From assembly GCF_003478035.1 (NCBI RefSeq), contig NZ_QUEP01000019.1, forward strand, positions 1 through 54,563: 54,563 nt of DNA, written 5' to 3'. The notes under the pieces were generated by a model. The model saw nothing but the letters and a program-made list of their open reading frames with translations, did no database searches and had not been told where the DNA came from. Positions 22,343-40,732 of this stretch are shown here, one piece after another (positions within the stretch are counted from its first letter, which is position 1; the number at the start of each line of letters is the position of its first letter). The translations under genes were made by a program, and so were the position numbers. This DNA comes from Clostridium sp. OF03-18AA (lineage in GTDB: Bacteria; Bacillota; Clostridia; Lachnospirales; Lachnospiraceae).

Positions 22343-22371
22343 TTGCTTTTTTCTGCTCAAAGTGCTATAAT
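22343..22371 (+). promoter_or_regulatory. Promoter for the DUF134-NifX gene
   Basis: TTGCTT at 22343-22348, 17 bases, TATAAT at 22366-22371, 35 bases before the ATG at 22407. It is the first promoter of the redox island. Confidence 0.7.
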
Positions 22372-22406
22372 CGGAATATACCGAATACAAAGGGAGGAAA
22401 GCTCCC

Positions 22407-23186: not shown

Positions 23187-23187
23187 T

Positions 23188-23844: not shown

Positions 23845-23849
23845 AAATA

Positions 23850-23878
23850 TTGCTTATAACACGAATCCTTGTTATAAT
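23850..23878 (+). promoter_or_regulatory. Rubrerythrin promoter with overlapping palindrome
   Basis: TTGCTT at 23850-23855, 17 bases, TATAAT at 23873-23878. The palindrome TTATAACA-N8-TGTTATAA (23854-23877) covers the spacer and most of the -10 box, an arrangement expected for repression. The repressor is not identified. Confidence 0.7.
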
Positions 23879-23910
23879 ATGAGCAGAAGAAGCTGAAAGG
23901 AGCATCGGCC

Positions 23911-24453: not shown

Positions 24454-24473
24454 AGAGAAAAGGAGAACGAATC

Positions 24474-24848
24474 ATGGAGCAGAAGTTTTACATTTGCAAG
24501 CATTGCGGCAACATCATTGCCAAGGTCAAGGACACGGGCGTTCCCGTCATCTGTTGCGGTGAGCCGATGAGCGAGATCATCCCCGGTACCACCGACGCCG
24601 CCGTGGAGAAGCACGTCCCTGTCTGGACTGTGGAAAACGGCATCGTTCATGTCAAGGTCGGCTCCGTAGAGCATCCCATGCTGCCGGAGCACTACATCGA
24701 GTGGGTGTCCCTCCACACCAAGCAGGGCAACCAGCGCAAGGAACTGCACCCGGGCGAGAAGCCGGAGGTCTGCTTTGCGCTCTGCGAGGGCGACGAAGTC
24801 GAGGCGGTCTACGCCTACTGCAACCTCCACAGTCTGTGGAAAGCGTGA
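24474..24848 (+). CDS. dfx: Desulfoferrodoxin (superoxide reductase)
   Basis: A 124-residue two-iron superoxide reductase. The N-terminal desulforedoxin site has Cys8, Cys11, Cys27 and Cys28. The catalytic centre uses His residues in EKHVPVW, VEHPM and PEHYIEW, with the Cys and His of YCNLHSLWK at the C-terminus. It reduces superoxide to peroxide without making oxygen, and the peroxide is then removed by the rubrerythrin just upstream. Rubredoxin encoded at 25227 is the usual electron donor. A good AAAGGAG lies before the ATG. Confidence 0.95.
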   Translation: MEQKFYICKHCGNIIAKVKDTGVPVICCGEPMSEIIPGTTDAAVEKHVPVWTVENGIVHVKVGSVEHPMLPEHYIEWVSLHTKQGNQRKELHPGEKPEVCFALCEGDEVEAVYAYCNLHSLWKA

Positions 24849-24924
24849 TCGTTCCGCGCATGGTATCTTAGAACCAACATAGAGAACTGAATGTCATGTA
24901 TTGCAGGCAGGAGGCAAACAAGTC

Positions 24925-25137
24925 ATGAAAGCACATAAATATTGGTCAATCGGAGCGGTAATTACCATGTTTGGAACTTTTTGCACTGGATATAAAGGCT
25001 CAAAAACAACGCATAAGTACCTTGCGCTTAGTTCCTTGATCTGCATGGTTATGGCAGTATATACGGGTCATAAAATGATTTCAGGGAATAAGAAAACAAA
25101 GAGAGTAAAACAAGCGGAAGCTGTGGATATTCTTTGA
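24925..25137 (+). CDS. Small two-helix membrane protein (DUF6219-like)
   Basis: A 70-residue protein with two membrane segments (about 8-25 and 34-52) joined by [16 protein letters not shown], and a lysine-rich tail. It resembles the DUF6219 family of small clostridial membrane proteins with a TGYKxxxxxHKYLAxxSL core; the match is from memory. No function is known. The ATG at 24925 follows GGAGG. It lies between superoxide reductase and rubredoxin genes in the same orientation, so a role near redox stress is possible but unproven. Confidence 0.7.
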
Positions 25138-25226
25138 GTAAGATAGGAATCGTTATTGCTTCTGATGACGATAAAGTCGGGCTAATGTTGTGTGCGAAAT
25201 ATAAAACATCAAAGGAGAATTTCATT

Positions 25227-25385
25227 ATGAAATATGTATGTGATGTGTGTGGTTGGGAATACGATGAAGAAAAGGGCTATCCGGAAGGCGGCATTGCACC
25301 GGGTACAAAATGGAAAGATATTCCGGATGATTTTGAATGCCCCTTATGTTTAGTTGGCAAAGATCAGTTTTCTGCGGCTGAGTAA
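25227..25385 (+). CDS. Rubredoxin
   Basis: A 52-residue electron carrier with the two CxxC knuckles [13 protein letters not shown] and [13 protein letters not shown] and the usual [12 protein letters not shown] between them. It can pass electrons to rubrerythrin, desulfoferrodoxin and flavodiiron proteins, all encoded in this island. The ATG at 25227 follows AAAGGAG; a longer in-frame reading has no ribosome site or homology. A strong terminator follows, closing the rubrerythrin-rubredoxin transcript. Confidence 0.97.
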
Positions 25386-25410
25386 AGAAGTACAACAGGA
25401 CCTATAAATA

Positions 25411-25455
25411 AAGAGCTGTGAAGCGGTATCTTACATACTGCTTCACAGCTCTTTT
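25411..25455 (+). terminator. Terminator after rubredoxin
   Basis: A perfect 14-bp stem: AAGAGCTGTGAAGC at 25411-25424 and its complement at 25440-25453, with a 15-base loop and a TTTTGGGTTT tail. Confidence 0.85.
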
Positions 25456-25479
25456 GGGTTTGTACAAAAATTTCCGTAA

Positions 25480-25521
25480 TGTGACCTCGTCACAGAAAAA
25501 TGCTTTACCATGCGGTATGAT
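25480..25521 (+). promoter_or_regulatory. Crp/Fnr-like operator and class II promoter
   Basis: The 15-base palindrome TGTGACCTCGTCACA is at 25480-25494 and a -10 box TATGAT at 25516-25521. No -35 box is found at the right distance. If transcription starts about 7 bases after the -10, the palindrome centre is near -41, the position used by CRP/FNR class II activators. The spacing between half-sites is 5 and not the CRP-typical 6. Confidence 0.6.
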
Positions 25522-25551
25522 AAAGCCACGATAAAGAAAGAGGTGGCGAAC

Positions 25552-25755
25552 ATGAAAATCAAGCTCAATCCCGATCAGGAGATTGTCAATACCATCCGGG
25601 AAGGACTCAAGCGCACCGGAGGATACTGTCCCTGCCGCAGGGAGCGCACAGAGGCAACCAAATGTATGTGTCAGGAGTTTAAGGATCAAATTGCAGATCC
25701 GCTCTTCGAGGGATTCTGCCACTGTATGCTCTATTACAAATCCTTACAGGATTAA
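25552..25755 (+). CDS. Ferredoxin-thioredoxin reductase catalytic-like protein
   Basis: A 67-residue protein with six cysteines in three CxC pairs: Cys26-x-28 (YCPCRR), Cys38-x-40 (KCMCQ) and Cys56-x-58 (FCHCML). Ferredoxin-thioredoxin reductase uses such cysteines for a 4Fe-4S cluster beside a redox disulfide and turns ferredoxin electrons into thiols. The spacing between pairs differs from the plant enzyme, and the variable subunit is absent, as in archaeal and clostridial relatives. It heads a tight operon with a ferredoxin, an iron-sulfur membrane protein and a thioredoxin. The ATG at 25552 follows AAAGAGG. Confidence 0.8.
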   Translation: MKIKLNPDQEIVNTIREGLKRTGGYCPCRRERTEATKCMCQEFKDQIADPLFEGFCHCMLYYKSLQD

Positions 25756-25767
25756 GGGGGGAAAGCT

Positions 25768-25971
25768 ATGTTGTCAAAGAAACTGGCCGCCGTAGATAGG
25801 ACGCGGTGTGTCGCCTGCGGTGTGTGTGAAAATACCTGTCCACTGGGGGCCGTCAAGGTGCGCCGTGGCTGCTACGCCGCCGTGGAGGCGGAACGCTGCG
25901 TAGGCTGCGGCAAGTGCGCAAAGCTCTGCCCCGTCGGCTGCATTGAGGTGAAAGTGAGGGCTGACGCATGA
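25768..25971 (+). CDS. 2[4Fe-4S] ferredoxin
   Basis: A 67-residue protein with two clusters: CVACGVCENTCPLGAV and CVGCGKCAKLCPVGCI, both complete CxxCxxCxxxCP motifs. It is the probable electron donor for the FTR-like protein 12 bases upstream or for the membrane protein that overlaps its stop (ATGA at 25968). GGGGGAAAG precedes the ATG. The tight packing makes a single electron-transfer module likely. Confidence 0.93.
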   Translation: MLSKKLAAVDRTRCVACGVCENTCPLGAVKVRRGCYAAVEAERCVGCGKCAKLCPVGCIEVKVRADA

Positions 25972-26543
25972 AAGCGAAGCATTGGTACGATTACCTGTGG
26001 GTATATGCCATCATCTATTTTGCACTGGGCTTTTTCAATATCCTGTTCGCGTGGCTGGGCATGATCGATTTTCTCTTGCCGCTGTTCTTAGCCATCTTTG
26101 GCGGGAACAAATTCTTTTGCAACCACCTCTGCGGACGGGGACAGCTGTTCAGCAAGCTGGGGACTGACCTTAAATGCTCCCGCTGTAAGCCCACGCCCCG
26201 CTGGATGGCCTCTAAGTGGTTCCGTTATGGCTTTTTGCTCTTTTTCCTGACGATGTTCGGCAACATGGTGTTCCAGACCTATCTGGTCGCTGCTGGTGCT
26301 GCGTCCCTACGGGAGGCCATTAAGCTGTTCTGGACATTCCGTGTGCCTTGGGGCTGGACTTATACTGCCGGTACAGTCGCTGATTGGGTGGCGCAGTTCA
26401 GCTTCGGCTTTTACAGCCTCATGCTGACCTCGCTGCTCATCGGCCTCATCGTCATGGTGCTCTATAAGCCCCGGACATGGTGTGCTTTCTGCCCCATGGG
26501 AACCATGACGCAGGGCATTTGCAAGCTGAAAAACAAAGAATAA
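25968..26543 (+). CDS. NapH-like membrane iron-sulfur protein
   Basis: A 191-residue membrane protein with four or five hydrophobic segments (about 10-45, 88-110, 140-170). It carries cysteine motifs after the first pair of segments (FCNHLCGRG, then KCSRCKPTP) and near the C-terminus (WCAFCPMGTMTQ), the pattern of the NapH/YccM/CcoG group. Family members move electrons between quinone or ferredoxin and periplasmic or cytosolic acceptors. Here the neighbours are ferredoxin and thioredoxin, so a role in ferredoxin-linked thiol reduction is possible. It is shorter than NapH and lacks a terminal double-cluster ferredoxin domain, which the separate ferredoxin gene may supply. Confidence 0.82.
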   Translation: MKAKHWYDYLWVYAIIYFALGFFNILFAWLGMIDFLLPLFLAIFGGNKFFCNHLCGRGQLFSKLGTDLKCSRCKPTPRWMASKWFRYGFLLFFLTMFGNMVFQTYLVAAGAASLREAIKLFWTFRVPWGWTYTAGTVADWVAQFSFGFYSLMLTSLLIGLIVMVLYKPRTWCAFCPMGTMTQGICKLKNKE

Positions 26544-26571
26544 TTAAGGATAACAGAAAGGAGTTTTTCTC

Positions 26572-26892
26572 ATGACTGAACTGAAAATTACTGCTGCGAA
26601 TTTTGAAAACGAGGTACTGCGTTCCGACCAACCCGTTTTGCTGGATTTCTACGCCGACTGGTGCGGACCGTGCAAAATGCTCTCTCCCATACTGCATGAG
26701 CTTGCCGAAGAAAAAAGCGGTGCGCTCAAGGTGGGCAAGGTCAATGTGGACGAGCAGATGGAGCTGGCAATGCGTTTTCAGGTGTCCAGTATCCCGATGC
26801 TGGTCGTATTCAAGGATGGAAAGGCCGTTGCCAAATCGGTGGGCTATCGGCCTAAGTCGGAGATTGCCGCAATGGTGGAGGGCGCAAGATGA
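26572..26892 (+). CDS. trxA: Thioredoxin
   Basis: A 106-residue thioredoxin with the active site WCGPC (Cys31, Cys34), the conserved Asp25 in LLDFYADW and the cis-proline in SSIPMLVVF. It reduces protein disulfides. It sits in the FTR-like operon and may be the target of that reductase; a second thioredoxin and an NADPH-type thioredoxin reductase occur at 38313-39580. Its stop overlaps the next gene (ATGA at 26889). Confidence 0.95.
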   Translation: MTELKITAANFENEVLRSDQPVLLDFYADWCGPCKMLSPILHELAEEKSGALKVGKVNVDEQMELAMRFQVSSIPMLVVFKDGKAVAKSVGYRPKSEIAAMVEGAR

Positions 26893-28583
26893 AAGTTGTA
26901 ATCGTAGGCGGTGTGGCGGGCGGTGCTTCTTCCGCCGCACGCATCCGCCGTTTGGATGAACACGCGCAGATCATCATGATCGAGCGCAGCGGCTATGTGT
27001 CCTATGCCAACTGCGGTCTGCCGTATTATGTAGGCGGCGTGATCAAAGAACAAGAAGAACTGACGTTGCAAACTCCGGAGAGCTTCTGGGACCGCTTTCG
27101 CATTGATGTACGGGTACGGCAGGAAGTAACTGCGATCAATCCCGCAGAGAAAACCGTCACCGTCCACGCACTGGACAGCGGGAAGGTCTACACGGAAACC
27201 TATGACAAACTGCTTCTTGCCCCCGGCGCAAAGCCGACGGTTCCTGCGCTTTCCGGCGTGGACAGCGAGCGGGTCTTTACCCTGCGCACTGTGGAAGACA
27301 CCCTCCGCATTCGACGCTTTGTAGAGGATCAGAAGCCGAAAACCGCTGTTTTGGCTGGCGGCGGCTTTATCGGTCTGGAAATGGCGGAAAACCTTGTGGA
27401 GATGGGCGTTTCGGTTACCATCGTCCAGCGTCTGAAGCAGCTATTAGCGCCTCTGGATGCGGATATGGCCAGCTTTGTCCATGCGGAAATGCGCAGACAC
27501 GGCGTGGCTCTGCGGTTGGATGAAACCGTCACTGGATTCCGACAGGACGGAGATTCCGTGCTGACGCTGCTGGAGGAAAGTGAGCCGCTGCGCTCCGACA
27601 TGGTGCTGCTGGCCATCGGCGTCACGCCGGACACCCATCTGGCAAAAGAGGCCGGACTTGAGCTGGGCATCCGGGGCAGCATCGCTGTCAACGAGCGGAT
27701 GGAAACCTCCGCGCCGGATATCTACGCTGTGGGCGATGCCGTAGAGGTCACCCATTTCGTGACCGGCCAAAAAGCATTGATCTCGCTGGCGGGGCCTGCC
27801 AACAAGCAGGGACGCATTGCCGCCGACAACATCTGCGGCGGAAACAGCCACTTTCACGGCTCTCAGGGTTCGTCTGTTCTGAAATTGTTTAGCTTGACCG
27901 CTGCCTCTACGGGGATCAATGAAAAGGCGGCGCAGGCAGCAGGGATTGCTTACGACAGAGTCGTACTTTTCCCAGCATCCCACGCTACCTATTATCCCGG
28001 CGCACAGTCTATGGCAATGAAGGTGCTGTATGAAAAAGAAAGCCTGCGGCTGCTGGGTGCGCAGATCGTTGGCGGCGAGGGCGTGGACAAGCGCATTGAT
28101 GTACTGGCAACGGCCATTCGCGCAAAAATGACAGCTTTGGAACTGACGGAGCTTGACCTTTCCTATGCGCCGCCCTATTCCTCTGCCAAAGACCCGGTCA
28201 ACATGGCAGGATTTATGATCGAGGATTTGGAGAGCGGGAAGGTGCGGCAGTTCCATTGGAATGAGGTTGAGGACTTGCCCTGCGATGGCAGGGCGACGCT
28301 GCTGGACGTCCGCACGGCGTGGGAGTATCAGCGGGGGCATCTGGACGGCTTTCGGAACATTCCCTTGGACGATCTGCGGGAGCATTTGGACGAGTTAGAC
28401 CGGGACAAGCCTGTCTATGTAAATTGCCAGACAGGGCTTCGCAGTTATCTGGCCTGCCGTCTTTTGACGCAGTACGGTTTCTCTTGTTCCCATCTCTCCG
28501 GCGGATACAGTTTTTATCAGGTCGTAACAAAAGAGCAGCAGACAGCGCGGAGCGCCTATCCCTGCGGAATGGAGGAGCTATGA
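26889..28583 (+). CDS. CoA-disulfide reductase with C-terminal rhodanese domain
   Basis: A 564-residue flavoprotein. The N-terminal FAD fold is KVVIVGGVAGGASSAARIRR; the redox Cys42 is in SYANCGLPYYVGG; the NAD(P)H fold is VLAGGGFIGLEMAENL; and the FAD-binding DIYAVGDAVE follows. A dimerization domain ends near 450. Residues of about 465-564 are a rhodanese domain with Cys513 in NCQTGLRS. CoADR-rhodanese fusions reduce CoA disulfide, persulfide or polysulfide, or act as NADH oxidases. Coupling with thioredoxin (ATGA) and the alarmone synthetase (ATGA at 28580) suggests a thiol-stress operon. The exact substrate cannot be read from the sequence. Confidence 0.9.
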   Translation: MKVVIVGGVAGGASSAARIRRLDEHAQIIMIERSGYVSYANCGLPYYVGGVIKEQEELTLQTPESFWDRFRIDVRVRQEVTAINPAEKTVTVHALDSGKVYTETYDKLLLAPGAKPTVPALSGVDSERVFTLRTVEDTLRIRRFVEDQKPKTAVLAGGGFIGLEMAENLVEMGVSVTIVQRLKQLLAPLDADMASFVHAEMRRHGVALRLDETVTGFRQDGDSVLTLLEESEPLRSDMVLLAIGVTPDTHLAKEAGLELGIRGSIAVNERMETSAPDIYAVGDAVEVTHFVTGQKALISLAGPANKQGRIAADNICGGNSHFHGSQGSSVLKLFSLTAASTGINEKAAQAAGIAYDRVVLFPASHATYYPGAQSMAMKVLYEKESLRLLGAQIVGGEGVDKRIDVLATAIRAKMTALELTELDLSYAPPYSSAKDPVNMAGFMIEDLESGKVRQFHWNEVEDLPCDGRATLLDVRTAWEYQRGHLDGFRNIPLDDLREHLDELDRDKPVYVNCQTGLRSYLACRLLTQYGFSCSHLSGGYSFYQVVTKEQQTARSAYPCGMEEL

Positions 28584-29251
28584 GTGAAAATTTATTTGGT
28601 TTGACGGTTGCGGCAGATAAAGGCTTGGATGATCTGCAATGCCAGCGCCTTTTAAGTGAAAATCGCAAGTATCAGGAAGTCATGCTGCAATACCGATGTG
28701 CGCTGAAAGCACTTGAAAGCAGGTTGGAAATTCTAAACGAAGAGTTTTCATTGCAGCATGATCGCAATCCGATAGAAAGTATAAAAAGCCGCTTGAAGTC
28801 GCCGTCCAGCATTATGAATAAGATGCAGAAACGCGGACTTCCTCTGGATTTTCCGACCATGCAGACAAATATCATGGATATTGCCGGTGTGCGGGTGATC
28901 TGCTCTTTCGAGGAGGATGTGTTCTTTTTGGCAAAGTGCTTAAAAAAACAGTCTGACATTGAAATCATCACAGAGAAAGATTATATTTCACACCCTAAGC
29001 CAAATGGCTATCGCAGTCTGCACCTGACGATCCGGCTGCCGGTATTCTTTGCGGAAAAAGTGATCCATGTGCCGGTGGAGATACAACTCCGTACAATCGC
29101 TATGGACTTCTGGGCAAGCCTTGAGCATACCATCCGCTATAAGAAAAACTTGCCGATAAATGCTGAAGTCGAAACTGAACTGAAAGAGTGCGCCGATTCC
29201 AGCAGAGAATGGGACGGTAAGATGGAACATTTACTGCATATCATAACATAA
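28580..29251 (+). CDS. Small alarmone synthetase (RelA/SpoT domain, RelQ/RelP-like)
   Basis: A 223-residue synthetase-only RelA/SpoT protein that would transfer pyrophosphate from ATP to GDP or GTP. Visible motifs are SIKSRLKSPSSIMNKM, DIAGVRVIC, HPKPNGYRSLHL and PVEIQLRT. There is no hydrolase, TGS or ACT domain. The ATG at 28580 overlaps the reductase stop and follows GGAGGAG; a long upstream in-frame extension lies inside the reductase gene and is rejected. Its place at the end of a redox operon suggests that oxidative or thiol stress raises (p)ppGpp directly; this is inference. Confidence 0.92.
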   Translation: MSENLFGLTVAADKGLDDLQCQRLLSENRKYQEVMLQYRCALKALESRLEILNEEFSLQHDRNPIESIKSRLKSPSSIMNKMQKRGLPLDFPTMQTNIMDIAGVRVICSFEEDVFFLAKCLKKQSDIEIITEKDYISHPKPNGYRSLHLTIRLPVFFAEKVIHVPVEIQLRTIAMDFWASLEHTIRYKKNLPINAEVETELKECADSSREWDGKMEHLLHIIT

Positions 29252-29527
29252 TGTGTCGAATATAAAATGAAAAGCACGCACTTTGGTGCTTGCCTTGGAC
29301 TTGCCAGGGACCGCCTTATCCGCCTTGGGTGGGCGACCCCTGCGAGCCCCAACCAATTTCTCCGCTTTCTGGTTTTCAGGCATAGTCTTTTCTGCTTTCG
29401 GCGGACTGCCACGGCACAGCTTTTTCGGCTTCTATATTGTAAGGAACATGGCTTTTCGCTGAATGAAAAGCGAAGCTGACCCGGGCTGGAGCGGTCTGTG
29501 TTAAAACGATATATTTTTTTGGAAATT
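29252..29527. other. Intergenic stretch with minus-strand gene remnant
   Basis: About 280 bases between the alarmone synthetase and the Rrf2 promoter. On the minus strand, an ATG near 29382 opens a coding-like reading that begins MPENQKAEKLVGARRGRPPK, with an AT-hook-like RGRPPK. It runs on into the 3' end of the synthetase gene, and no ribosome site was seen. It looks like the leftover of a small mobile-element gene. No terminator for the upstream operon was found. Confidence 0.35.
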
Positions 29528-29559
29528 ATCTTGACAAAATTTATCAAGATTGATATGAT
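29528..29559 (+). promoter_or_regulatory. Rrf2 promoter with palindromic operator
   Basis: TTGACA at 29531-29536, 17 bases, TATGAT at 29554-29559. The palindrome ATCTTGA-N9-TCAAGAT (29528-29550) covers the -35 box and spacer, as expected for autoregulation by the Rrf2 protein encoded next. Confidence 0.75.
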
Positions 29560-29594
29560 GTCATTAACAAGCAAGCGAAAAGAGGATGTGGAGC

Positions 29595-30026
29595 ATGATC
29601 ATCACCAAAGAGACGGACTACGCACTGCGCATTTTGCGGGTGCTGCTGGACGGGGAGAAGCATTCGGTGGCCGAGATGTCGGAAACGGAATTGATCCCCA
29701 ATCAGTTTGCCTACCAGATTCTGCGCAAGCTCTCCGCCGGCAATTTGGTGCGGGTGAGCCGCGGCGCCCTCGGCGGCTGCGCGCTGTCCTGCGATCTGGA
29801 CGCGACCTCCCTCTACGATCTCATGGGGGTCGTGGGGGAGCGGGGCATCCTGTGCGCCTGCATGGAGCCGGGATATGAATGCCGCTGGCAGGACAAGCAT
29901 GGGCGGTGCGCCATCCACTGTCAGCTGGCGGCCTTGCAGCTAAAGCAGGATGAGGCGTTCCGTGCCGTGAGCCTGCGCAGGCTGCTGACCGGCGGATCCG
30001 ATCCCCAAGATACAAGCAAGCTGTAA
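29595..30026 (+). CDS. Rrf2-family iron-sulfur regulator
   Basis: A 143-residue winged-helix regulator: ITKETDYALRILRVLL at the start, IPNQFAYQILRKLSAGNLVRVSRGALGGCALS as recognition helix and wing. The cysteines CACMEPGYEC and CAIHC in the C-terminal part could bind an iron-sulfur cluster, as in IscR and NsrR. The ATG at 29595 is chosen from the conserved N-terminus; a GTG at 29586 in frame is possible. A palindrome overlaps its promoter. It lies 22 bases before the acyl-CoA dehydrogenase fusion and is presumably co-transcribed with it, so it should sense redox or iron-sulfur state for that operon. Confidence 0.9.
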   Translation: MIITKETDYALRILRVLLDGEKHSVAEMSETELIPNQFAYQILRKLSAGNLVRVSRGALGGCALSCDLDATSLYDLMGVVGERGILCACMEPGYECRWQDKHGRCAIHCQLAALQLKQDEAFRAVSLRRLLTGGSDPQDTSKL

Positions 30027-30048
30027 AATTTTAAGAGGAGGTACCCAT

Positions 30049-31962
30049 ATGCTGTTTCAAACCACGGCGGCGCACGAAGAGCTGCGCGCGAAGATCCGGA
30101 GTTTTGCGGAGGAGGAGATCAAGCCCCTCGCATTTTTAATGGATCAGAACAATGAGTTTCCCGAGGAGGCTGTCAAGAAGCTGGGTAAGCTGGGCTGGAT
30201 GGGCATTCCCTACCCAAAGGAGTACGGCGGTGCCGGTCTTGATGCCCTGAGCTACGCCATCGCGGTGGAGGAGCTGGCCCGTGTGGACGGCGGCGCGGGC
30301 GTAATCCTCTCCGCCCACGTCTCCCTCGGCTCATGGCCCATTTTCGCCTATGGCACCGAGGAGCAGAAGAAGAAATATCTGGTTCCGCTGGCCAAGGGCG
30401 AGAAGATCGGCGCCTTCGGCCTCACGGAGTCCAACGCCGGATCCGACGCCGGCGGCACGGAGACCACGGCGCTGGATAAGGGGGACTACTACCTCCTCAA
30501 CGGCGGCAAGATCTTCATTACCAACGCCCCTAAGGCGGACACCTATGTGGTTTTCGCTGTCACCACGCCGGACATCGGCACCCGGGGCATCTCCGCTTTC
30601 ATCGTGGAGAAGGGCTGGAAGGGCTTTGAGTTCGGCGACCACTATGACAAGATGGGCATTCGCTCCTCCTCCACGGCGGAGCTGATCTTCAACGACGTGA
30701 AGGTTCCCAAGGAAAACCTATTGGGCAAGGAGGGCGAGGGCTTCAAGATTGCCATGTCCACGCTGGACGGCGGACGCATCGGCATCGCCGCGCAGGCGCT
30801 GGGCATCGCCCAAGGCGCGTTTGAGCACGCGTTGAGCTATTCCAAGGAGCGCGTCCAGTTCGGCAAGCCCATCGCGGCCCAGCAGAGCATCGCCTTCAAG
30901 CTGGCGGATATGGCCACCAAGCTGCGCTGCGCCCGGTTCCTCATCTATTCCGCGGCGGAGCTGAAGGAGCAGCACGCGCCTTACGGCATGGAGTCCGCCA
31001 TGGCGAAGATGTACGCCTCGGACATCGCGCTGGAGGTCACCAACGATGCCTTGCAGATCCACGGCGGCAGCGGCTTCCTCAAGGGCATGGAGGTGGAACG
31101 GGCCTACCGCGACGCCAAGATCACCACTATCTACGAGGGCACTAACGAGATCCAGCGGGTGGTCATCGCCTCTCATCTGGTGGGCAGGCTGGGCAAGAAC
31201 TCCGGCGGCGAGAGCCGTTCGGCGGCTAAGAAACCCGCGCCCATCACCGGCATTCGCAAAAAGACCATCTTCCGGGAGGGGGATGCTGCCCAGCAGGTGG
31301 CCGACCTTGTAGCGGCGCTGAAGAAGGATGGTCACGACTTCTCCGTGGGCATCCCTATGGATACACCCATCCCGCAGGCGGAGCGGGTGGTCTCCGCGGG
31401 CAAGGGCATCGGGGAGAAAAAGAACATGAAACTGGTAGAGTCGCTGGCCAAGGCTGCCGGCGCGGCCATCGGTTCTTCCCGCCCTGTGGCGGAGACTCTC
31501 AAATATCTGCCGCTGAACCGCTATGTGGGTATGTCCGGTCAGAAGTTCACCGGCAATCTGTACATCGCCTGTGGCATCTCCGGCGCATCCCAGCACCTTA
31601 AGGGCATCAAGGACGCCTCCACCATCGTGGCCATCAATAAGAACGGTAACGCGCCTATCTTCAAGAACTGCGACTACGGCATCGTGGGCGATGTGGAGGA
31701 GATCCTGCCCCTGCTCGCTGCTGCGCTGGATAGCGGCGAAAAGCTGCCCGCGCCGCCTATGGTAAAGATGAAGCGGCCCACACCGCCGAAGCCCACCCCC
31801 ATCGGCGACCGCTACGTCTGCAGCGGCTGCGGCTACGAGTATGTGCCGGAGTTGGGCGACGAGGACGGCGAGATCGCGCCGGGTACGCTCTTTGAGCAGC
31901 TTCCCGCCGAGTGGGTGTGCCCGGAGTGCGCGGAGACGAAGGATCAATTTGTAAAGGCTTGA
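30049..31962 (+). CDS. Acyl-CoA dehydrogenase-ETFalpha-rubredoxin fusion
   Basis: A 637-residue three-part flavoprotein. Residues 1-385 are an acyl-CoA dehydrogenase with [21 protein letters not shown] and the catalytic Glu363 in [12 protein letters not shown]. Residues of about 420-560 are the FAD-binding C-terminal domain of ETF alpha ([51 protein letters not shown]). Residues of about 588-637 are rubredoxin with Cys591, Cys594, Cys624 and Cys627. The ETF beta part and the N-terminal half of ETF alpha are missing. Electrons from acyl-CoA could run from the first FAD to the second and leave through rubredoxin. A flavodiiron protein gene follows after 22 bases. GGAGG precedes the ATG. The segment appears GC-richer than most of the window. 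Confidence 0.93.
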
Positions 31963-31984
31963 GCCGTGAAGGAGGTAAGATAAG

Positions 31985-33196
31985 ATGTATTGCGTGCGTA
32001 AAGTAACAAACGACCTCTACTGGGTGGGCGCCAACGACCATCGCCTGGCCCTGTTTGAAAACTGCTTTCCCATTCCCCGGGGCGTAAGCTACAACGCTTA
32101 CTGCCTGCTGGATGAAAAGACGGTGCTCTTTGACACGGTGGACTGGTCTGCCTGCCGCCAGCTTTTGGAAAATCTGGCGTATGTGCTGGATGGCCGCGAG
32201 CTGGACTACCTGCTGGTCAACCATCTGGAGCCGGATCACGCCGCCTGCATCGAGGAGATCCTGCTGCGCCATCCCAAGGTGAAGCTGATCTCCAACGAGA
32301 AGGCATTCATGCTCATGCGGCAGTTCGGCTTCCATGTGGACGGACATGAGTGCATCGAGGTGAAGGAGGGCGACACCTTCTCCTTTGGCAAGCACACCGT
32401 CACCTTTGTGGGCGCGCCTATGGTTCACTGGCCGGAGGCCATGGTGACCCTCGACGTCACCGACGGCGTCCTCTTTTCCGCCGACGCCTTCGGCACCTTC
32501 GGCGCGCTGGACGGCAAGCTGTTCGCCGACGAGGTGGACTTCGAGCGGGACTGGCTGGACGACGCCCGCCGCTATCTCACCAACATCGTGGGCAAGTACG
32601 GCCCCCACATCCAGCTCCTGCTGAAAAAGGCCGGCGGCGTTTTGGATCAGATCAAGTACATCTGCCCGCTCCACGGCCCCGTGTGGCGCAAGGATCTGGG
32701 CTGGTTCATCGAAAAGTACGACACATGGAGCCGCTATGCCCCTGAGACCCAGGGCGTGCTCATCGTCTACGCCTCCATGTACGGCAACACGGAGAACGCG
32801 GCGCAGGCGCTGGCGGCGTCGCTCTGCGATAAGGGCATGAGCAAGGTGGCGATGTACGATGTGTCCTCCACTCATGTCTCCCAGCTGATCTCCGAGGCGT
32901 TTAAGTACAGTCACATTGTCCTGGCCTCTGTGACCTACAATCTCGGCATCTACCCCGCCATGCATGACTTCCTCATGGATATGAAGGCACTGAATCTGCA
33001 AAACCGCACCTTTGCCATCATTGAAAACGGCTCATGGGCGGTGAAGTCCGGTGATCTCATGCAGAAATTCGTCAACGATGAGCTTAAGAACATGACGGTG
33101 CTCAACGAGCGGCTCAGCCTCGCCTCGTCCATGGGCACGGACAAGCGCACTGAGCTGGAAGCACTGGCGGACGCCATTCTGGAATCTATGAAGTAA
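31985..33196 (+). CDS. fprA: Flavodiiron protein (A-type, oxygen reductase)
   Basis: A 403-residue cytosolic flavodiiron protein. The beta-lactamase-like domain has the diiron motif H80-x-E82-x-D84-H85 (HLEPDHAA), the later ligands in MVHWPEAM, SADAFGTFG and CPLHGP. The flavodoxin domain starts near residue 255 (LIVYASMYGNTENAAQAL) and binds FMN. It reduces oxygen to water, or NO to N2O, with electrons from rubredoxin. It lies right after the dehydrogenase-rubredoxin fusion, with GAAGGAGG as ribosome site, so the fusion is a natural electron donor. A hairpin terminator follows. Confidence 0.95.
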   Translation: MYCVRKVTNDLYWVGANDHRLALFENCFPIPRGVSYNAYCLLDEKTVLFDTVDWSACRQLLENLAYVLDGRELDYLLVNHLEPDHAACIEEILLRHPKVKLISNEKAFMLMRQFGFHVDGHECIEVKEGDTFSFGKHTVTFVGAPMVHWPEAMVTLDVTDGVLFSADAFGTFGALDGKLFADEVDFERDWLDDARRYLTNIVGKYGPHIQLLLKKAGGVLDQIKYICPLHGPVWRKDLGWFIEKYDTWSRYAPETQGVLIVYASMYGNTENAAQALAASLCDKGMSKVAMYDVSSTHVSQLISEAFKYSHIVLASVTYNLGIYPAMHDFLMDMKALNLQNRTFAIIENGSWAVKSGDLMQKFVNDELKNMTVLNERLSLASSMGTDKRTELEALADAILESMK

Positions 33197-33277
33197 CTGG
33201 CAGGAAAGCCAAAACCAAGACAACAGACAACAAACAGCCCCGCCGTGTCGGCTGCAGAAAAACCGGCTTTCAAAAAT

Positions 33278-33315
33278 AGAGCGGGCAAGCGTGATACTGC
33301 GCTTGCCCGCTCTTT
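33278..33315 (+). terminator. Terminator after the first flavodiiron gene
   Basis: A perfect 14-bp GC-rich stem, AGAGCGGGCAAGCG (33278-33291) with its complement at 33300-33313, an 8-base loop and a short TTT tail. Confidence 0.75.
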
Positions 33316-33361
33316 GCCCAAAAGGACATGAGAAGTGACCGGAGAAGATGAGAGGATCGAA

Positions 33362-35878
33362 ATGGAGATCAGAAAACGAAACGGGAAGTCTGTTCCTTTT
33401 CAACAGGAGAAAATTTTCAACGCCATGAAAAAAGCGTTTGATGGACAGGGAAGGGAGATTGGGGGCGGAGAACTGGAGGAGATCCTCGCCGCCGTTCTCG
33501 ACAATCTCTCCGTCACAGTACCGCTCACCGTGGAACGTGTGCAGGACGAGGTGGAGCGGACGCTCATGGAGCGCGGACACTATGAGGTGGCCAAGGCGTA
33601 CATCCTCTATCGCGAAAAGCGGTCTGCGCTGCGCCGCGTCCGGCATACCATCGCGCAGACGGTGGGGGATAACTCGCTTGACGAGGTGCTGCGCCGTATC
33701 CAGATGGATTTTACCGAGGAAATCTACTCCCTCGCGGCGCTTCAATTGAAGTTTGAGAGCTTCTGTCGCCCGGGCATGACGGAGGATGAGAGGGCTGAGG
33801 CACTGACCAAGGCAGCGGTAGAGCTGACTACGGCAGAGGCACCCAAGTGGGAGTTCATCGCGGCGCGGCTTCTGAACCACTCCTTTCGCTGTCGCAACGC
33901 ACAGGAATGGGAGGGGCGCGGCGTCGGCGACCTCTATGGCAGGCTTCGCTATCTGACGGATAAGGGACTCTACGGTGACTATATTCTTGCCCACTATACC
34001 CACGAGGAGATCGCTATGGCGGAGGACTTTCTCTGCCCGGAACGGGACGAGTTGTTCACCTACTCCGGCCTTGACCTGCTGCTCAAACGCTATGTGATCC
34101 AGTCACGCAGCCGCGTGCCGCTGGAAACACCGCAGGAGATGTTTTTGGGTATCGCGCTGCATCTTGCTATGAACGAAAGCTCTGACCGCATGGGGTGGGT
34201 AAAACGCTTTTACGATATGCTCAGCCGTATGGAGGTCACGATGGCGACACCTACCATGTCCAACGCACGAAAGCCCTACCATCAGCTTTCAAGCTGCTTT
34301 GTGGACACTGTGCCGGACAGTCTGGACGGCATCTACCGCTCGCTGGACAACTTCGCAAAGGTCTCTAAATTTGGCGGTGGAATGGGGATGTACTTCGGTA
34401 AGGTGCGCGCTGCAGGCAGCACCATCCGCGGCTTTCAAGGGGCGGCGGGCGGTGTTATCCGCTGGATCCGGTTGGTCAACGACACCGCCGTGGCGGTGGA
34501 TCAGTTGGGGATGCGGCAGGGCGCTGCGGCGGTTTACTTAGACGCATGGCACCGGGATCTGCCTGAATTCCTTCAACTGCGCACCAACAACGGCGACGAC
34601 CGCATGAAGGCGCATGATGTGTTTCCCGCCGTATGCTATCCGGATCTCTTTTGGCGACTGGCGGAGGAGAACATAGACGCGCCGTGGCATCTCATGTGTC
34701 CGCATGAGATCCTCACGGTCAAGGGCTACGCACTGGAGGATTACTGGGGTACGGAATGGGAGAAGCGGTATCTGGACTGCGTCAATGACCCGCGCATCGA
34801 AAAGCGCAGCGTCACCGTCAAGGACATCGTGCGGCTGGTGCTTCGCTCGGCAGTGGAGACCGGCACGCCCTTCGCCTTCAACCGCGACAGCGTAAATCGT
34901 ATGAACCCAAACGGCCACACGGGAATGATCTATTGCTCCAATCTCTGCACGGAGATCGCACAGAACATGGCGCCCATCGAGCATATCAGCACTGAGGTGC
35001 ACACGGAGAACGGCGACACAGTGGTGGTGACGGCCACACGCCCCGGTGAGTTTGTGGTCTGCAACCTGGCGAGTCTGTCTCTCGGTAATCTGGCGGTGGA
35101 GGACGAGGCCTATATGGAACGCACGGTGGAAACGGCCATCCGCGCGCTGGATAATGTGATCGACCTCAACTTCTACCCGTTGGAATACGCGCGGCTTACC
35201 AATCAGAAGTACCGCAGCATCGGCCTGGGCGTCAGCGGCTACCACCACATGCTGGCAAAGCGCGGCATCCGTTGGGAGAGCGATGAGCACCTTGCCTTCA
35301 CCGACGCGGTGTTCGAGCATATCAACTACGCCGCCATCAAGGCGGACACAGCACTGGCACGGGAAAAGGGCCGCTACGCGCTCTTTGAGGGCAGCGACTG
35401 GCAGACAGGCGCGTATTTTGAAAAGCGAGGTTATACCTCAGAAAAGTGGCGGGCGCTTGCGGAAACGGTGGCGGTGCAGGGAATGCGCAACGCCTATCTG
35501 CTGGCTGTCGCACCCACTTCCAGCACATCCATCCTCTCCGGCACGTCGGCGGGCATCGATCCAATTATGAAGAAATTCTTTTTAGAGGAAAAAAAGGGCA
35601 GCATGCTGCCCCGCGTTGCTCCGGAGCTTTCTATGGATACATGGTGGTACTATAAGGCGGCGCATCTGATCGACCAAAGCTGGTCGGTACGCGCCGCGGG
35701 CTTTCGCCAGAGACATATTGACCAGGCGCAGAGCATGAATCTCTATATCACCAACGACTATTCCATGCGTCAGGTGCTCAGACTGTATTTGGAGGCGTGG
35801 AGGGCCGGCGTCAAGACCATTTATTATGTCCGCAGCAAGGCCCTTGAGGTCGAGACCTGTGAAAGCTGCTCGTCATAA
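33362..35878 (+). CDS. nrdA: Ribonucleotide reductase class Ia, large subunit
   Basis: An 838-residue catalytic subunit that converts ribonucleoside diphosphates to deoxy forms. The N-terminal ATP cone (EIRKRNGKSVPFQQEKIFNAM) senses dATP. Catalytic residues are Cys312 in LSSCFVDTV, the N-x-C-x-E set at 527-531 (NLCTE) and the partner cysteine in VVCNLASLSL. The radical-path tyrosines are in YYVRSKALEVE and the C-terminal redox pair is CESCSS. The ATG at 33362 matches the usual family start and follows GAGAGGA; a GTG at 33335 would add nine residues. nrdB follows after 10 bases. Thioredoxins in this island can regenerate it. Confidence 0.95.
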   Translation: MEIRKRNGKSVPFQQEKIFNAMKKAFDGQGREIGGGELEEILAAVLDNLSVTVPLTVERVQDEVERTLMERGHYEVAKAYILYREKRSALRRVRHTIAQTVGDNSLDEVLRRIQMDFTEEIYSLAALQLKFESFCRPGMTEDERAEALTKAAVELTTAEAPKWEFIAARLLNHSFRCRNAQEWEGRGVGDLYGRLRYLTDKGLYGDYILAHYTHEEIAMAEDFLCPERDELFTYSGLDLLLKRYVIQSRSRVPLETPQEMFLGIALHLAMNESSDRMGWVKRFYDMLSRMEVTMATPTMSNARKPYHQLSSCFVDTVPDSLDGIYRSLDNFAKVSKFGGGMGMYFGKVRAAGSTIRGFQGAAGGVIRWIRLVNDTAVAVDQLGMRQGAAAVYLDAWHRDLPEFLQLRTNNGDDRMKAHDVFPAVCYPDLFWRLAEENIDAPWHLMCPHEILTVKGYALEDYWGTEWEKRYLDCVNDPRIEKRSVTVKDIVRLVLRSAVETGTPFAFNRDSVNRMNPNGHTGMIYCSNLCTEIAQNMAPIEHISTEVHTENGDTVVVTATRPGEFVVCNLASLSLGNLAVEDEAYMERTVETAIRALDNVIDLNFYPLEYARLTNQKYRSIGLGVSGYHHMLAKRGIRWESDEHLAFTDAVFEHINYAAIKADTALAREKGRYALFEGSDWQTGAYFEKRGYTSEKWRALAETVAVQGMRNAYLLAVAPTSSTSILSGTSAGIDPIMKKFFLEEKKGSMLPRVAPELSMDTWWYYKAAHLIDQSWSVRAAGFRQRHIDQAQSMNLYITNDYSMRQVLRLYLEAWRAGVKTIYYVRSKALEVETCESCSS

Positions 35879-35888
35879 GGAGGATAGC

Positions 35889-36932
35889 ATGATGGAACTG
35901 AAGAAAAAGCCCCTCTTTAACCCGGAGGGCGACCCTGATGTGCGCCTGCGGCGCATGATCGGCGGCAATACCACCAACCTCAACGACTTCAACAATATGA
36001 AGTACGCTTGGGTCAGCGACTGGTACCGGCAGGCCATGAACAACTTTTGGATCCCTGAGGAGATCAATCTCTCGCAGGATGTGAAGGACTATCCCCGCCT
36101 GCTGTCAGCCGAGCGCAGCGCCTACGATAAAATTCTGAGTTTTCTTGTCTTTTTGGATTCCATTCAGACAGCGAACCTGCCTAATATCGGCGCCTACATT
36201 ACAGCCAACGAGGTCAATCTCTGCCTGTCCATTCAGGCGTTTCAGGAGTGTGTCCACTCACAGAGCTACAGCTATATGCTCGACACCATCTGTTCCCCCG
36301 TGGAGCGCAATGACATCCTCTACCAATGGAAAACGGACGAGCATCTGCTGCGCCGCAACACCTTCATTGGGGACTGCTACAACGAGTTTCAGGAGCGGAA
36401 GGACGCTCCCACGCTGCTGCGCGTGATGATGGCGAACTATATTTTGGAGGGCATCTATTTTTACAGCGGCTTTATGTTCTTCTACAATCTCTCCCGAAAC
36501 GGGAAGATGCCCGGCTCGGCGCAGGAGATCCGCTATATAAACCGCGACGAGAACACGCACTTGTGGCTGTTCCGCAATATCATCACGGAGCTGCAAAAGG
36601 AGCAGCCGGAGTTGTTCACCGCCGAGAGCGTACAAGCGCTGCGCGAGATGATGCGTGAGGGCGTGGAGCAGGAGATCGCATGGGGGCATTATGTGATCGG
36701 CGACGACATCCCGGGGTTGAACCGGCAGATGATTAGCGATTACATCCGCTATCTCGGCAATCTTCGCTGGACGAGCCTTGGCTATCCGGCATTGTATCCG
36801 GGCTTTGAGAGCGAACCGGAGAGCATGGAATGGGTCAGCCAGTACGCTGACGCCAATATGGTCAAGACCGATTTCTTTGAGGCACGCAGTACCGCCTACG
36901 CCAAGAGCACCGCACTGATAGACGATTTATAA
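35889..36932 (+). CDS. nrdB: Ribonucleotide reductase class Ia, radical subunit
   Basis: A 347-residue ferritin-like subunit that makes the tyrosyl radical with oxygen. The ligand set is complete: Asp in VFLDSIQ, E120-x-x-H123 in QECVHSQSY with the radical Tyr127, the Glu in ILEGIYFYSGF and E-x-x-H in RDENTHLW. Because the tyrosine is kept, this is a classical oxygen-activated type and not the Tyr-less R2c. AAGGAGGA overlaps the nrdA stop; the ATG at 35889 is followed by another at 35892. An oxygen-dependent RNR among oxygen-removal genes suggests that the host makes dNTPs under micro-oxic conditions. Confidence 0.94.
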   Translation: MMELKKKPLFNPEGDPDVRLRRMIGGNTTNLNDFNNMKYAWVSDWYRQAMNNFWIPEEINLSQDVKDYPRLLSAERSAYDKILSFLVFLDSIQTANLPNIGAYITANEVNLCLSIQAFQECVHSQSYSYMLDTICSPVERNDILYQWKTDEHLLRRNTFIGDCYNEFQERKDAPTLLRVMMANYILEGIYFYSGFMFFYNLSRNGKMPGSAQEIRYINRDENTHLWLFRNIITELQKEQPELFTAESVQALREMMREGVEQEIAWGHYVIGDDIPGLNRQMISDYIRYLGNLRWTSLGYPALYPGFESEPESMEWVSQYADANMVKTDFFEARSTAYAKSTALIDDL

Positions 36933-36969
36933 GAAAACCAAAGGCATCAGAATAGGAGGTATTTTTTAT

Positions 36970-38151
36970 ATGGGTATCCGAACGGTAACAGATGCCATCC
37001 GCTATGTAGGGGTGGATGATAACACATTGACACTCTTTGAAAACCAGTACCTCGTCCAGCCTATGGGAGTGAGCTACAACTCCTATGTCATTCTGGACGA
37101 GAAAATCGCCGTGATGGACAGCGTGGACGCACGGGCGGCGGAGGAATGGCTTTCCAATGTAGCGCAGGTGTTGGGGGGGCGCAACCCCGATTATCTTGTG
37201 GTCACACACATGGAGCCGGATCATTCCGGCAGCCTCATGCGGATAGCGCAAGAGTACCCGGAGATGAAGATCGTGGGAAACGCGAAAACATTTACCCTGA
37301 TCAAGCAGTTCTTTGGCACGGGTGCATTGTCGGAAGACCGTATGCTGGAGGTTGGCGAGGGCAGCACGATCTCTCTGGGCTCACACCGGCTGCGCTTCCT
37401 GCTGGCACCGATGGTACACTGGCCGGAGGTGATGACGGCGTATGAGGAAACGGAAAAAATCCTGTTCTCGGCGGATGCCTTCGGACGCTTTGGCTCACTG
37501 GAACGGACTGCCCGTGCCCCCTGGGTGCCGCAGGCCCGACGGTATTGTTACAATATTATCGGGAAATATGGCGCACAGGTGCAGGCTCTGCTGAAAAAGA
37601 CCTCCGCGCTGGAGATCCAAACGATCTGCCCGCTCCATGGTCCCGTGCTTACAGAAGGGCTGGAGGAGTGTCTGCGGCTCTATGATCTCTGGTCACAATG
37701 GGAACCAGAAGAATCGGAGAGCATACTGATTGCCCACGCATCCATCCATGGAAATACTGCCCATGCGGCGAAGACCATCAAGGGTAAATTAGAGAAAAAA
37801 GGCGTGCAGGTCAGCATATGTGATCTCACTGTGACAGATCTTTCCTACGCTGTTGCCAGTGCATTCTACTGCGGGAAACTGGTGTTGGCCTGCTCCACTT
37901 ATGACGGAGGACTGTTCCCGCCCATGAAGGCCTTTTTGGATCATTTACAGACAAAGGGATTCCGAAACCGCCGGATCGGCCTCATGGAAAACGGCTCATG
38001 GGCCCCTGCTGCCGCGCGGCTGATGCGCGCCGAGTTGGAAAAGATGAAGGAACTCCGACTGTGTGAAACGGAGGTATCGCTGCGCGGCGCACTGAACCAA
38101 ACCAGCGAAGCGCAGATGGACGCTCTTGTGGCGGAGCTCTGCGCGGAATAA
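36970..38151 (+). CDS. Second flavodiiron protein
   Basis: A 393-residue homologue of the protein at 31985. The diiron motif is H80-x-E-x-D-H (HMEPDHSG), with MVHWPEVM, SADAFGRFG and CPLHGP, and the flavodoxin part ILIAHASIHGNTAHAAKTI from about residue 255. The domain order is the same but the sequences differ widely, so this is an old duplication or a separate acquisition. It lies 37 bases after nrdB with an AGGAGG ribosome site. It may protect the RNR from excess oxygen, or use NO in place of oxygen; the sequence does not decide. Confidence 0.94.
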   Translation: MGIRTVTDAIRYVGVDDNTLTLFENQYLVQPMGVSYNSYVILDEKIAVMDSVDARAAEEWLSNVAQVLGGRNPDYLVVTHMEPDHSGSLMRIAQEYPEMKIVGNAKTFTLIKQFFGTGALSEDRMLEVGEGSTISLGSHRLRFLLAPMVHWPEVMTAYEETEKILFSADAFGRFGSLERTARAPWVPQARRYCYNIIGKYGAQVQALLKKTSALEIQTICPLHGPVLTEGLEECLRLYDLWSQWEPEESESILIAHASIHGNTAHAAKTIKGKLEKKGVQVSICDLTVTDLSYAVASAFYCGKLVLACSTYDGGLFPPMKAFLDHLQTKGFRNRRIGLMENGSWAPAAARLMRAELEKMKELRLCETEVSLRGALNQTSEAQMDALVAELCAE

Positions 38152-38312
38152 GCTGCAACAAACCGCAGCTATTCTCGTACAGATGATGGTCTTACTCATC
38201 TGCTTTATGTCCCAAGGGCAGAGTACCATCATCTCAGGTTGAGGTCACGATGTGGTGTGGGGCGAGAACGGAGTCTTGAGAATACCCAAACAAAAGAAAG
38301 GAGCTGACAGAT

Positions 38313-38636
38313 ATGGCAGCTATGAATATGAATCAGGAGCAGTTTGAGCAGGCGACCCGGGGCGAAAAGCCCGTTTTGGTGGATTTCTGGGCGCCCTGGT
38401 GCGGCTATTGCCGGAGGATCGGCCCTGCGTATGAGAAGATTGGAGAGGAATACGCGGACAGCCTCGTTGTCAGCAAGATCAATATTGACGAGGAGCCGCG
38501 GCTGGCGGGGGCCGAGGGGATCGAGGTCATCCCAACTCTGGTGCTGTACCGGAACGGAAAGGCCGTGGATTCCATCACCGCGCCCGGCTCAAAGGCAGAG
38601 ATCGACCGCTTCATTCAGGAAGCCTTGGCGAAATAA
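38313..38636 (+). CDS. Thioredoxin, WCGYC type
   Basis: A 107-residue thioredoxin with the atypical active site APWCGYC and the cis-proline in VIPTLVLY. The Tyr in place of Pro should shift its redox potential compared with the WCGPC copy at 26572. It is followed after 14 bases by thioredoxin reductase, so the pair forms an NADPH- or ferredoxin-type thiol system. AAAGGAG lies before the ATG at 38313. A 10-bp inverted repeat at 38181-38234, without a T run, is in the gap upstream. Confidence 0.93.
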   Translation: MAAMNMNQEQFEQATRGEKPVLVDFWAPWCGYCRRIGPAYEKIGEEYADSLVVSKINIDEEPRLAGAEGIEVIPTLVLYRNGKAVDSITAPGSKAEIDRFIQEALAK

Positions 38637-38650
38637 CGGAGGATTCAGAT

Positions 38651-40650: not shown

Positions 40651-40732
40651 AAAGCACTGCTGGGTGCTGTATCAGCATGATACCTGGCAGGCTTTATCCA
40701 TATCAGTGTATGGAGATTGGAGACAACAGAAA

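Follow-up and report, generated by a model that had tools for sequence, protein, structure and literature searches.

The subject of this study is a 54,563-nucleotide stretch of DNA from Clostridium sp. OF03-18AA (assembly GCF_003478035.1, contig NZ_QUEP01000019.1, positions 1 to 54,563 of the forward strand), hereafter called the window, and in particular three consecutive genes in it: an Rrf2-family regulator, a fusion of acyl-CoA dehydrogenase, the FAD domain of electron transfer flavoprotein alpha (ETF-alpha) and rubredoxin, and a flavodiiron protein (FDP). Judged by architecture and context, the fusion and the FDP are well supported as a fresh member of the already published butyryl-CoA:oxygen oxidoreductase (BOOR) system of Fusobacterium nucleatum, in which the fusion is named BCR, and the DNA of the pair is nearly identical in gut Clostridia that are otherwise distant from each other. 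Our explanation of these observations, which we hold to be probable and with good confidence, joins butyryl-CoA-fed reduction of oxygen, control by Rrf2 and an exchanged genomic island. The dehydrogenase domain would oxidise butyryl-CoA, or a short acyl-CoA much like it, to give the enoyl-CoA. The electrons released would reach the FAD of the fused ETF-alpha domain first, the rubredoxin domain next and finally the FDP, which would take them up at its FMN and di-iron centre and reduce O2 to water. Bound to a palindrome that overlaps the -35 box, the Rrf2 protein would keep the operon repressed, and damage to its cluster by oxygen would end this. The pair and its regulator would belong to an 18-kb oxygen-survival island which here lies within an element bearing relaxase and integrase genes, and which gut Clostridia of distant lineages would have exchanged recently.

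The open reading frame (ORF) at 30049-31962 (forward strand) encodes a BCR of 637 residues with three domain blocks, all past the Pfam cut-off, namely Acyl-CoA_dh_N/M/1 at residues 6-377, the ETF_alpha FAD domain at 441-521 and Rubredoxin at 588-634. The fusion that the original prediction had read from the letters alone is thus confirmed, as are the residues it named: the catalytic Glu363 is present within YEGT (362-365) and all four rubredoxin cysteines are there (591, 594, 624 and 627). The ETF-alpha part is the C-terminal FAD domain only, the NCBIfam EtfA models listed aligning solely with their C-terminal part (e.g. 194-311 of 313), and it carries GSSRP at 475, GMSGQ at 494, ISGASQH at 510 and NGNAPIF at 532, all conserved in alignment A1; we take SSRP, GxSG, SGxxQH and NxxxxAxIF to be the FAD-site motifs of ETF-alpha. 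No ETF-beta turned up in those genes of the cluster that were scanned with Pfam, in agreement with the prediction that it is missing. The best PDB match of the dehydrogenase domain, whether judged by sequence (5ol2_C) or by fold (TMt 0.95, 60% identity), is butyryl-CoA dehydrogenase (Bcd) of the Clostridioides difficile Bcd-EtfAB complex; the 50 matches listed by the fold search all involve chains about as long as an acyl-CoA dehydrogenase and are uninformative on the other domains, and the structure model of the fusion, a monomer of moderate confidence, is uninformative on domain arrangement or on the complex with the FDP.

The partner gene (31985-33196, forward strand) starts 22 bases past the stop codon of the fusion, and its product of 403 residues contains ODP (PF19583) and Flavodoxin_1 (PF00258) with no further domain, which places it in class A of the FDPs. 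It carries H80-x-E82-x-D84-H85, H148, D167 and H230, presumably the di-iron ligands. Upstream of the fusion lies the Rrf2 gene (29586-30026, forward strand), whose product is past the cut-off of Pfam Rrf2 (PF02082; E 6.8e-17, 62 against 30 bits) and under that of NCBIfam TIGR00738 (58.8 against 73.3 bits). Both neighbours therefore stand where the original prediction had put them. The likely start of the regulator at 29595 gives an Asp8, and its C-terminal half is rich in cysteine (Cys 90, 92, 99, 108 and 112, numbered from 29586), so that the protein is probably an Fe-S sensor.

Bystrom and Wolthers (2024; Biochemistry 63:2352) is reportedly the primary paper on the BOOR of F. nucleatum. According to the passages of the 2025 review PMC12288474 on this enzyme, the FDP FN1423 and the neighbour-gene protein BCR, made of Bcd, the C-terminus of EtfA and rubredoxin, form an alpha4beta4 complex which was named BOOR, oxidises butyryl-CoA while reducing O2 to water and is without NO reductase activity; the corresponding part of PMC12630350 assigns BOOR to FN1423-FN1424 and gives the same reaction. 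The suggestion that the fusion is a new, self-contained electron wire is hence rejected, the architecture having been characterised in F. nucleatum already (PMC12288474 and PMC12630350, in those passages). As for the predicted function, that acyl-CoA oxidation feeds the FDP without soluble ETF or NADH is favoured by homology to the F. nucleatum pair and was already in print, while the added option of NO as acceptor is weakened because that pair did not reduce NO (PMC12288474, same passages). In gut Clostridia an Rrf2 regulator gene of the C0FN14 type adjoins BOOR according to parts of a 2026 preprint (PMC13404960), which name gene pairs of gut Firmicutes as BOOR, place genes for ribonucleotide reductase (RNR), thioredoxin and rubrerythrin near Rrf2-BOOR, notably in Faecalibacterium prausnitzii, and remark on Asp8 in a relative of the window Rrf2.

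To see how the fusion is distributed, it was searched at E <= 1e-180 in 398 genomes of the phylum and 391 of the class. Matches occur in 6 of the former and 32 of the latter, which is a patchy distribution, and two of these genomes, G093 in the phylum set and G720 in the class set, have a rubredoxin-less form only. The locus set for neighbourhood comparison consisted of 36 wide genome stretches (38 were fetched, and two proved to be ordinary Bcd loci and were set aside), 80 contig loci and one plasmid stretch. It gave 115 fusions, 112 full-length and three rubredoxin-less, with closely related loci all kept in the counts; L115 and L143 of the contig loci have no full-length fusion and stand outside the 112. 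The catalytic Glu is kept in all 112, and an FDP gene is next to 107 of the 107 full-length fusions with downstream room or a visible neighbour (105 determined automatically and two, L101 and L149, by eye; five others are ended by the contig and were excluded), relatedness being unthinned. Homologues in genomes, a survey of which the original prediction had proposed, thus do lie near oxygen reductases. Rubredoxin-less proteins exist beyond the three compared here (L056, L058 and L066), and none of these three has an FDP beside it; set against 107 of 107 for the full fusions, this indicates that the rubredoxin domain goes with the FDP. The L056 protein adjoins genes for 3-hydroxyacyl-CoA dehydrogenase and a CoA-transferase.

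Several further observations concern the setting of the fusion in its hosts. Of ten carrier genomes tested for Rnf genes, nine have them; none were found in G781, a genome of 1.6 Mb to which a contig of a metagenome-assembled genome (MAG) had led. The published energy loop of BOOR, Bcd/Etf and Rnf would therefore be possible in these hosts. The genome nearest to the window, G001, has two more Bcd-type genes with ETF-alpha genes close to them. RNR genes occur in 7 of the 112 full-fusion loci within the available DNA, all of the near-identical island type, and many flanks are short; RNR as a general partner of BOOR is rejected on this count. In P0025, a protein of 1084 residues, three rubredoxin-like domains alternate with three ETF-alpha FAD domains behind an FDP core, and there is no dehydrogenase; this inverse wiring suggests that ETF-alpha plus rubredoxin may act as a portable plug. 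In P0032 and P0038 the ETF-alpha FAD domain is partly duplicated (two matched stretches with an internal repeat), either in reality or through assembly error.

Regarding the exchange of the island, seven genomes (Clostridium fessum, Faecalibacterium, Oscillibacter and G001) have a BCR-FDP core whose DNA shares 96.6-99.5% identity with that of the window, while rpoB identity among these genomes falls to 65%. When C. fessum or G001 is compared with F. prausnitzii or with Oscillibacter MSJ-31 or ER4, the BCR and FDP genes are 97.5-98.7% identical whereas rpoB is 64.8-68.0% identical, which makes vertical descent very unlikely. In O. valericigenes these two genes share 96.1-96.6% identity with those of the window and of the remaining six carriers. 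Beyond the core, C. fessum matches window positions 22219-39895 at 97.7-99.7%, Oscillibacter sp. MSJ-31 matches 22292-39798 piecewise at 91-97% with the last part inverted, and G001 matches 29239-39804 at 98%, the island core lying at 2.965-2.976 Mb of that genome. F. prausnitzii ATCC 27768 and APC923/51-1 match 29441-36963 and 29441-36958, respectively, at 97.5% and have more pieces between 22253 and 39809 at 88-95%; Oscillibacter ER4 matches 22332-28917 (93%) and 29441-35677 (97%). The left ends of the matches fall at 22219-22332 in five genomes and the right ends at 39798-39895 in five, so that the island takes approximately 22219-39804 of the window (to 39895 in C. fessum), about 17.6 kb with Rrf2, BCR and FDP inside, and its GC content is 55.7% against 47.7-49.8% in the flanking modules. 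The original prediction is silent on the island and its horizontal spread, and on the second FDP and the class I RNR encoded there.

The content of the copies varies. A nitroreductase gene follows NrdB in F. prausnitzii APC923/51-1, and ORFs of equal length stand at that place in MSJ-31 and ATCC 27768. The stretch 29252-29440, from the RelA/SpoT gene to the Rrf2 promoter, is a recurrent breakpoint, with matches stopping or starting at 29214-29259 or at 29441 in several carriers, and MSJ-31 has an insert of about 1.4 kb there. The 142-kb plasmid pMM35_02 of Vescimonas fastidiosa (NZ_AP023417.1, L159) carries Rrf2-BCR-FDP, another nitroreductase and a second FDP, with 86.6% identity over 46% of the query, and is typed as non-mobilizable by PLSDB; near its BOOR operon are genes for a second Rrf2, a transcriptional repressor, ferritin and thioredoxin. 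A search of a phage collection gave no match.

Upstream of the Rrf2 gene, inspection of the sequence found a promoter-like TTGACA-N17-TATGAT of the three genes at 29531-29559 (forward strand). It overlaps the palindrome ATCTTGA-N9-TCAAGAT (ATCTTGACAAAATTTATCAAGAT, 29528-29550), a predicted Rrf2 operator lying over the -35 box, which matches with no mismatch where 0.06 matches are expected in the window. The relaxed form CTTGAY-N7-RTCNAG was found in 24 of the 43 Rrf2-linked loci with enough upstream DNA (0.005 expected), a count which is partly post hoc because the pattern was read from the palindromes of some of these same loci. The split is 10 of 10 island-like loci against 14 of the 33 others. 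It occurs in none of 60 control loci without Rrf2, scanned over the 400 bases upstream of BCR and not upstream of an Rrf2 gene, and the same pattern with its spacing one base off is found in 0 of 43 and 0 of 60 loci, respectively. A search of the window with one mismatch allowed gave 8 matches against 3.3 expected, and for this reason lone loose matches mean little. Binding of Rrf2 to this site and sensing through an Fe-S cluster would be expected in this organism.

The fusions of Anaerococcus bear on the route of the electrons between BCR and FDP. The fusion was found in 29 of the 31 Anaerococcus genomes listed (L039, L040 and L184-L210), whose entries not marked as MAG include A. octavius, A. 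hydrogenalis and A. porci, and all 29 full-length proteins have Asp, Ser, Ser and Ser in place of the four rubredoxin cysteines. In a related genus the fusion (L211, 81% identical) keeps them, and among 98 proteins found with this domain 70 have no Cys in the last 75 residues and 28 have four. The dN/dS of the altered domain within Anaerococcus is about 0.11, beside 0.09 for ETF-alpha and 0.06 for the dehydrogenase, values of purifying selection; it scores as rubredoxin in six of six genomes tested; and it is predicted with moderate confidence to keep the fold, a model which is not independent evidence because the alignment is rich in Cys-bearing homologues. The FDP motif H.E.DH is present downstream in 29 of 29 loci, and none of the fixed changes in this FDP falls at a ligand position. 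Fixed changes are also seen in the ETF-alpha domain (449, 475, 507, 508 and 510), and a separate rubredoxin gene is present in six of six genomes tested, therefore supply of rubredoxin in trans is possible.

These facts give substance to an alternative in which the fused rubredoxin is mainly a clamp for docking the FDP, its iron being optional, and electrons go from the ETF-alpha FAD to the FMN of the FDP directly or through a separate rubredoxin. With all 29 full-length Anaerococcus proteins lacking the cysteines, an electron wire via the rubredoxin iron may not be general. However, the other fusions keep Cys591 and Cys594 in 108 of 108 and Cys624 and Cys627 in 107 of 107, which argues that the iron is under selection in the type found in the window, and the Anaerococcus pair may have lost or altered its activity. 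We therefore regard the docking role as a possible but rather doubtful account of the window pair, and prefer transfer through the rubredoxin iron for it.

A second alternative concerns the substrate. Among NCBIfam models the dehydrogenase scores best with that for acryloyl-CoA reductase AcrC, its 490 bits falling short of the cut-off of 640, and the enzyme could prefer another acyl-CoA, e.g. propionyl- or isovaleryl-CoA, so that the link with butyrate would be loose. Against this, the nearest structures are butyryl and short-chain acyl-CoA dehydrogenases and the F. nucleatum enzyme uses butyryl-CoA according to the part of PMC12288474 that describes it; we think a different preferred substrate unlikely and butyryl-CoA the probable one. 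Still less probable is a main role of the FDP in NO reduction, with the operon serving as defence against nitrosative stress under an NsrR-like Rrf2. FDPs are able to reduce NO, the closest NCBIfam models are NorV flavorubredoxins, and a passage of PMC13404960 compares the Rrf2 protein with NsrR; but the NorV scores are far under cut-off (207 against 635 bits), the F. nucleatum BOOR is described in PMC12288474, in the passages cited above, as without NO reduction, and the island encodes enzymes for oxygen and superoxide together with a class I RNR. Finally, an old chromosomal cluster that seems nearly identical between hosts through contamination, binning or chimeric assembly, and not through transfer, would agree with the draft state of several carriers and with the surroundings of the C. 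fessum copy, where the ten ORFs scanned look chromosomal. This is highly improbable, as G001 is one 3.6-Mb contig, the C. fessum copy is on an 885-kb contig, the carriers differ from each other (96.1-99.5% identity), and island order and content vary (the MSJ-31 inversion, the nitroreductase of APC923/51-1 and the plasmid, the ORFs in MSJ-31 and ATCC 27768).

In spite of this, a number of observations weigh against our explanation and should be seen together. Rrf2 is present in a minority of loci, namely 43 of the 103 loci that hold a full-length fusion and 600 bases of DNA before it, and outside the island type the operator form occurs in only 14 of 33 Rrf2-linked loci. The loss of cysteines in Anaerococcus does not fit an obligatory step through the fused rubredoxin. 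The likeness to FN1424/FN1423 is drawn from published description. On the side of mobility, the C. fessum surroundings just mentioned look chromosomal, no VirB4 or VirD4 was found among the ORFs scanned with Pfam (the element may extend past the window), the two edges of the island have no 13-base word in common, direct or inverted, and the window is without a tRNA. Insertion of the island at a specific site with att repeats was sought at the edges and not found; given the lack of edge repeats and of a tRNA, no site-specific mechanism emerged.

The island is carried in the window by an element with genes on both sides of it. On the left are a type IA DNA topoisomerase (2541-4619; Pfam Topoisom_bac, Toprim), a protein of 2454 residues with SNF2 and Helicase_C domains (6616-13980) and a MobA/VirD2 relaxase (15118-16584; Pfam Relaxase); on the right are PemK/MazF, a small HTH protein and two tandem tyrosine integrases (Phage_integrase, 41450-42658 and 42806-44017, together 41450-44017), the topoisomerase, SNF2 protein, relaxase and integrases all on the forward strand. 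In G001 a related element matches 17657-21808 at 96.5%, and after only about 260 bases the match resumes at 40316-44241 (71%), which means that G001 has, in that position, an island-free form of the element, whose right arm is a divergent relative. The same order in G001 supports that integrases and relaxase belong to one element. Relaxases are also situated about 4 kb from the island end in MSJ-31 and in F. prausnitzii ATCC 27768, which makes three hosts with relaxases near the island, and transfer by such elements would be a plausible means. Beyond the integrases, 50813-54177 is a second mobilisation module (a MobA/MobL relaxase and an AAA/Toprim protein), part of which matches Oscillibacter ER4 at 95%.

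The cargo of the island, all on the forward strand, mostly fits survival of an anaerobe in oxygen. It begins with a protein like DUF134/FeMo-Co-type regulators (22407-23186; PF02001 and PF02579) and a Crp/FNR-family regulator (23098-23844; cNMP_binding and HTH_Crp_2), followed by rubrerythrin (23911-24453; Rubrerythrin and RUBY_RBDX), desulfoferrodoxin, i.e. superoxide reductase (24474-24848; PF01880 and PF06397), and a stand-alone rubredoxin (25224-25385; Pfam Rubredoxin, 3.4e-22). Next are a protein like the catalytic chain of ferredoxin-thioredoxin reductase (25510-25755; FeThRed_B, 2.2e-06), a 4Fe-4S ferredoxin-like protein (25768-25971; Fer4 in two stretches), a 4Fe-4S binding protein, probably of the membrane by its hydrophobic sequence (25968-26543; Fer4_5), a thioredoxin (26572-26892; Pfam Thioredoxin), a pyridine nucleotide-disulphide oxidoreductase with rhodanese domain (26889-28583; Pyr_redox_2, Pyr_redox_dim and Rhodanese), presumably of the CoA-disulphide-reductase type, and a RelA/SpoT-domain protein (28604-29251; RelA_SpoT). 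After the FDP gene come the large subunit NrdA (33335-35878; Ribonuc_red_lgC/lgN and ATP-cone) and the small subunit NrdB (35826-36932; Ribonuc_red_sm) of class I RNR, the O2-dependent type; NrdB keeps ECVHSQSY, which we take to be the context of the radical Tyr. A second FDP with ligand motifs present (36970-38151; Pfam ODP) lies between the RNR and thioredoxin genes, the latter encoding a thioredoxin (38313-38636, recognised by its translation and with matching ORFs at the same place in carriers) and a thioredoxin reductase (38651-39580; Pyr_redox_2; the plasmid homologue is annotated trxB).

We see an even chance that the two broader propositions suggested by these data hold together, namely that oxygen tolerance is traded between families on mobile elements as a package of BOOR, superoxide reductase, rubrerythrin, class I RNR and thioredoxin, and that the Anaerococcus rubredoxin is a metal-free docking piece. 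If true, aerotolerance in the gut would be an acquired trait, as antibiotic resistance is. By means of BOOR, strict anaerobes would spend butyryl-CoA, the precursor of butyrate, on the removal of oxygen; if the package is mobile, oxygen tolerance of commensals near the mucosa or between hosts, and butyrate output as well, could follow recent transfer and not ancestry. In the cysteine-less proteins of Anaerococcus nature would provide a way to test how electrons get from the dehydrogenase to the oxygen reductase. Among the papers listed by literature searches that covered few subscription papers, no report was found of a mobile BOOR, of a horizontally shared oxygen-survival island or of the cysteine-less variant, and a term search in PMC6907783, a survey of gut mobile elements, gave no mention of rubrerythrin or flavoprotein. 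PMC13252398 deals, in its passages, with an FDP of Bacteroides.

Compared with known systems, the window pair has in common with the F. nucleatum BOOR (BCR FN1424 and FDP FN1423) the domain order and the bicistronic arrangement with the FDP, as far as the review passages describe them. It differs as a clostridial type with an upstream Rrf2 gene and an operator-like site, and it sits inside a larger, horizontally shared island. With the Rrf2-BOOR neighbourhoods in the cited parts of PMC13404960 it shares Rrf2, BCR and FDP, and in F. prausnitzii also RNR, thioredoxin and rubrerythrin. The F. prausnitzii loci L081 and L093, maybe of other strains than those of the preprint, share about 97.5% of their DNA letters with the window over 29441-36963 and 29441-36958, while mobility, superoxide reductase and an operator are not discussed in section 13 or the searched passages of PMC13404960. 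Next to the bifurcating Bcd-EtfAB of C. difficile (5ol2), the dehydrogenase domain is 60% identical and the ETF-alpha FAD domain homologous, but the fusion has neither ETF-beta nor domain I of ETF-alpha, and the proposed electron flow is reversed, out of butyryl-CoA. ETF-beta and domain I of ETF-alpha have their roles in bifurcation, and because both are missing no bifurcation is expected in the fusion. Finally, class A FDPs with rubredoxin donors, known as rubredoxin:oxygen oxidoreductase, show the same beta-lactamase-like and flavodoxin domains and the same kind of donor, but the rubredoxin of the window pair is fused to an acyl-CoA dehydrogenase and would not be fed by NAD(P)H.

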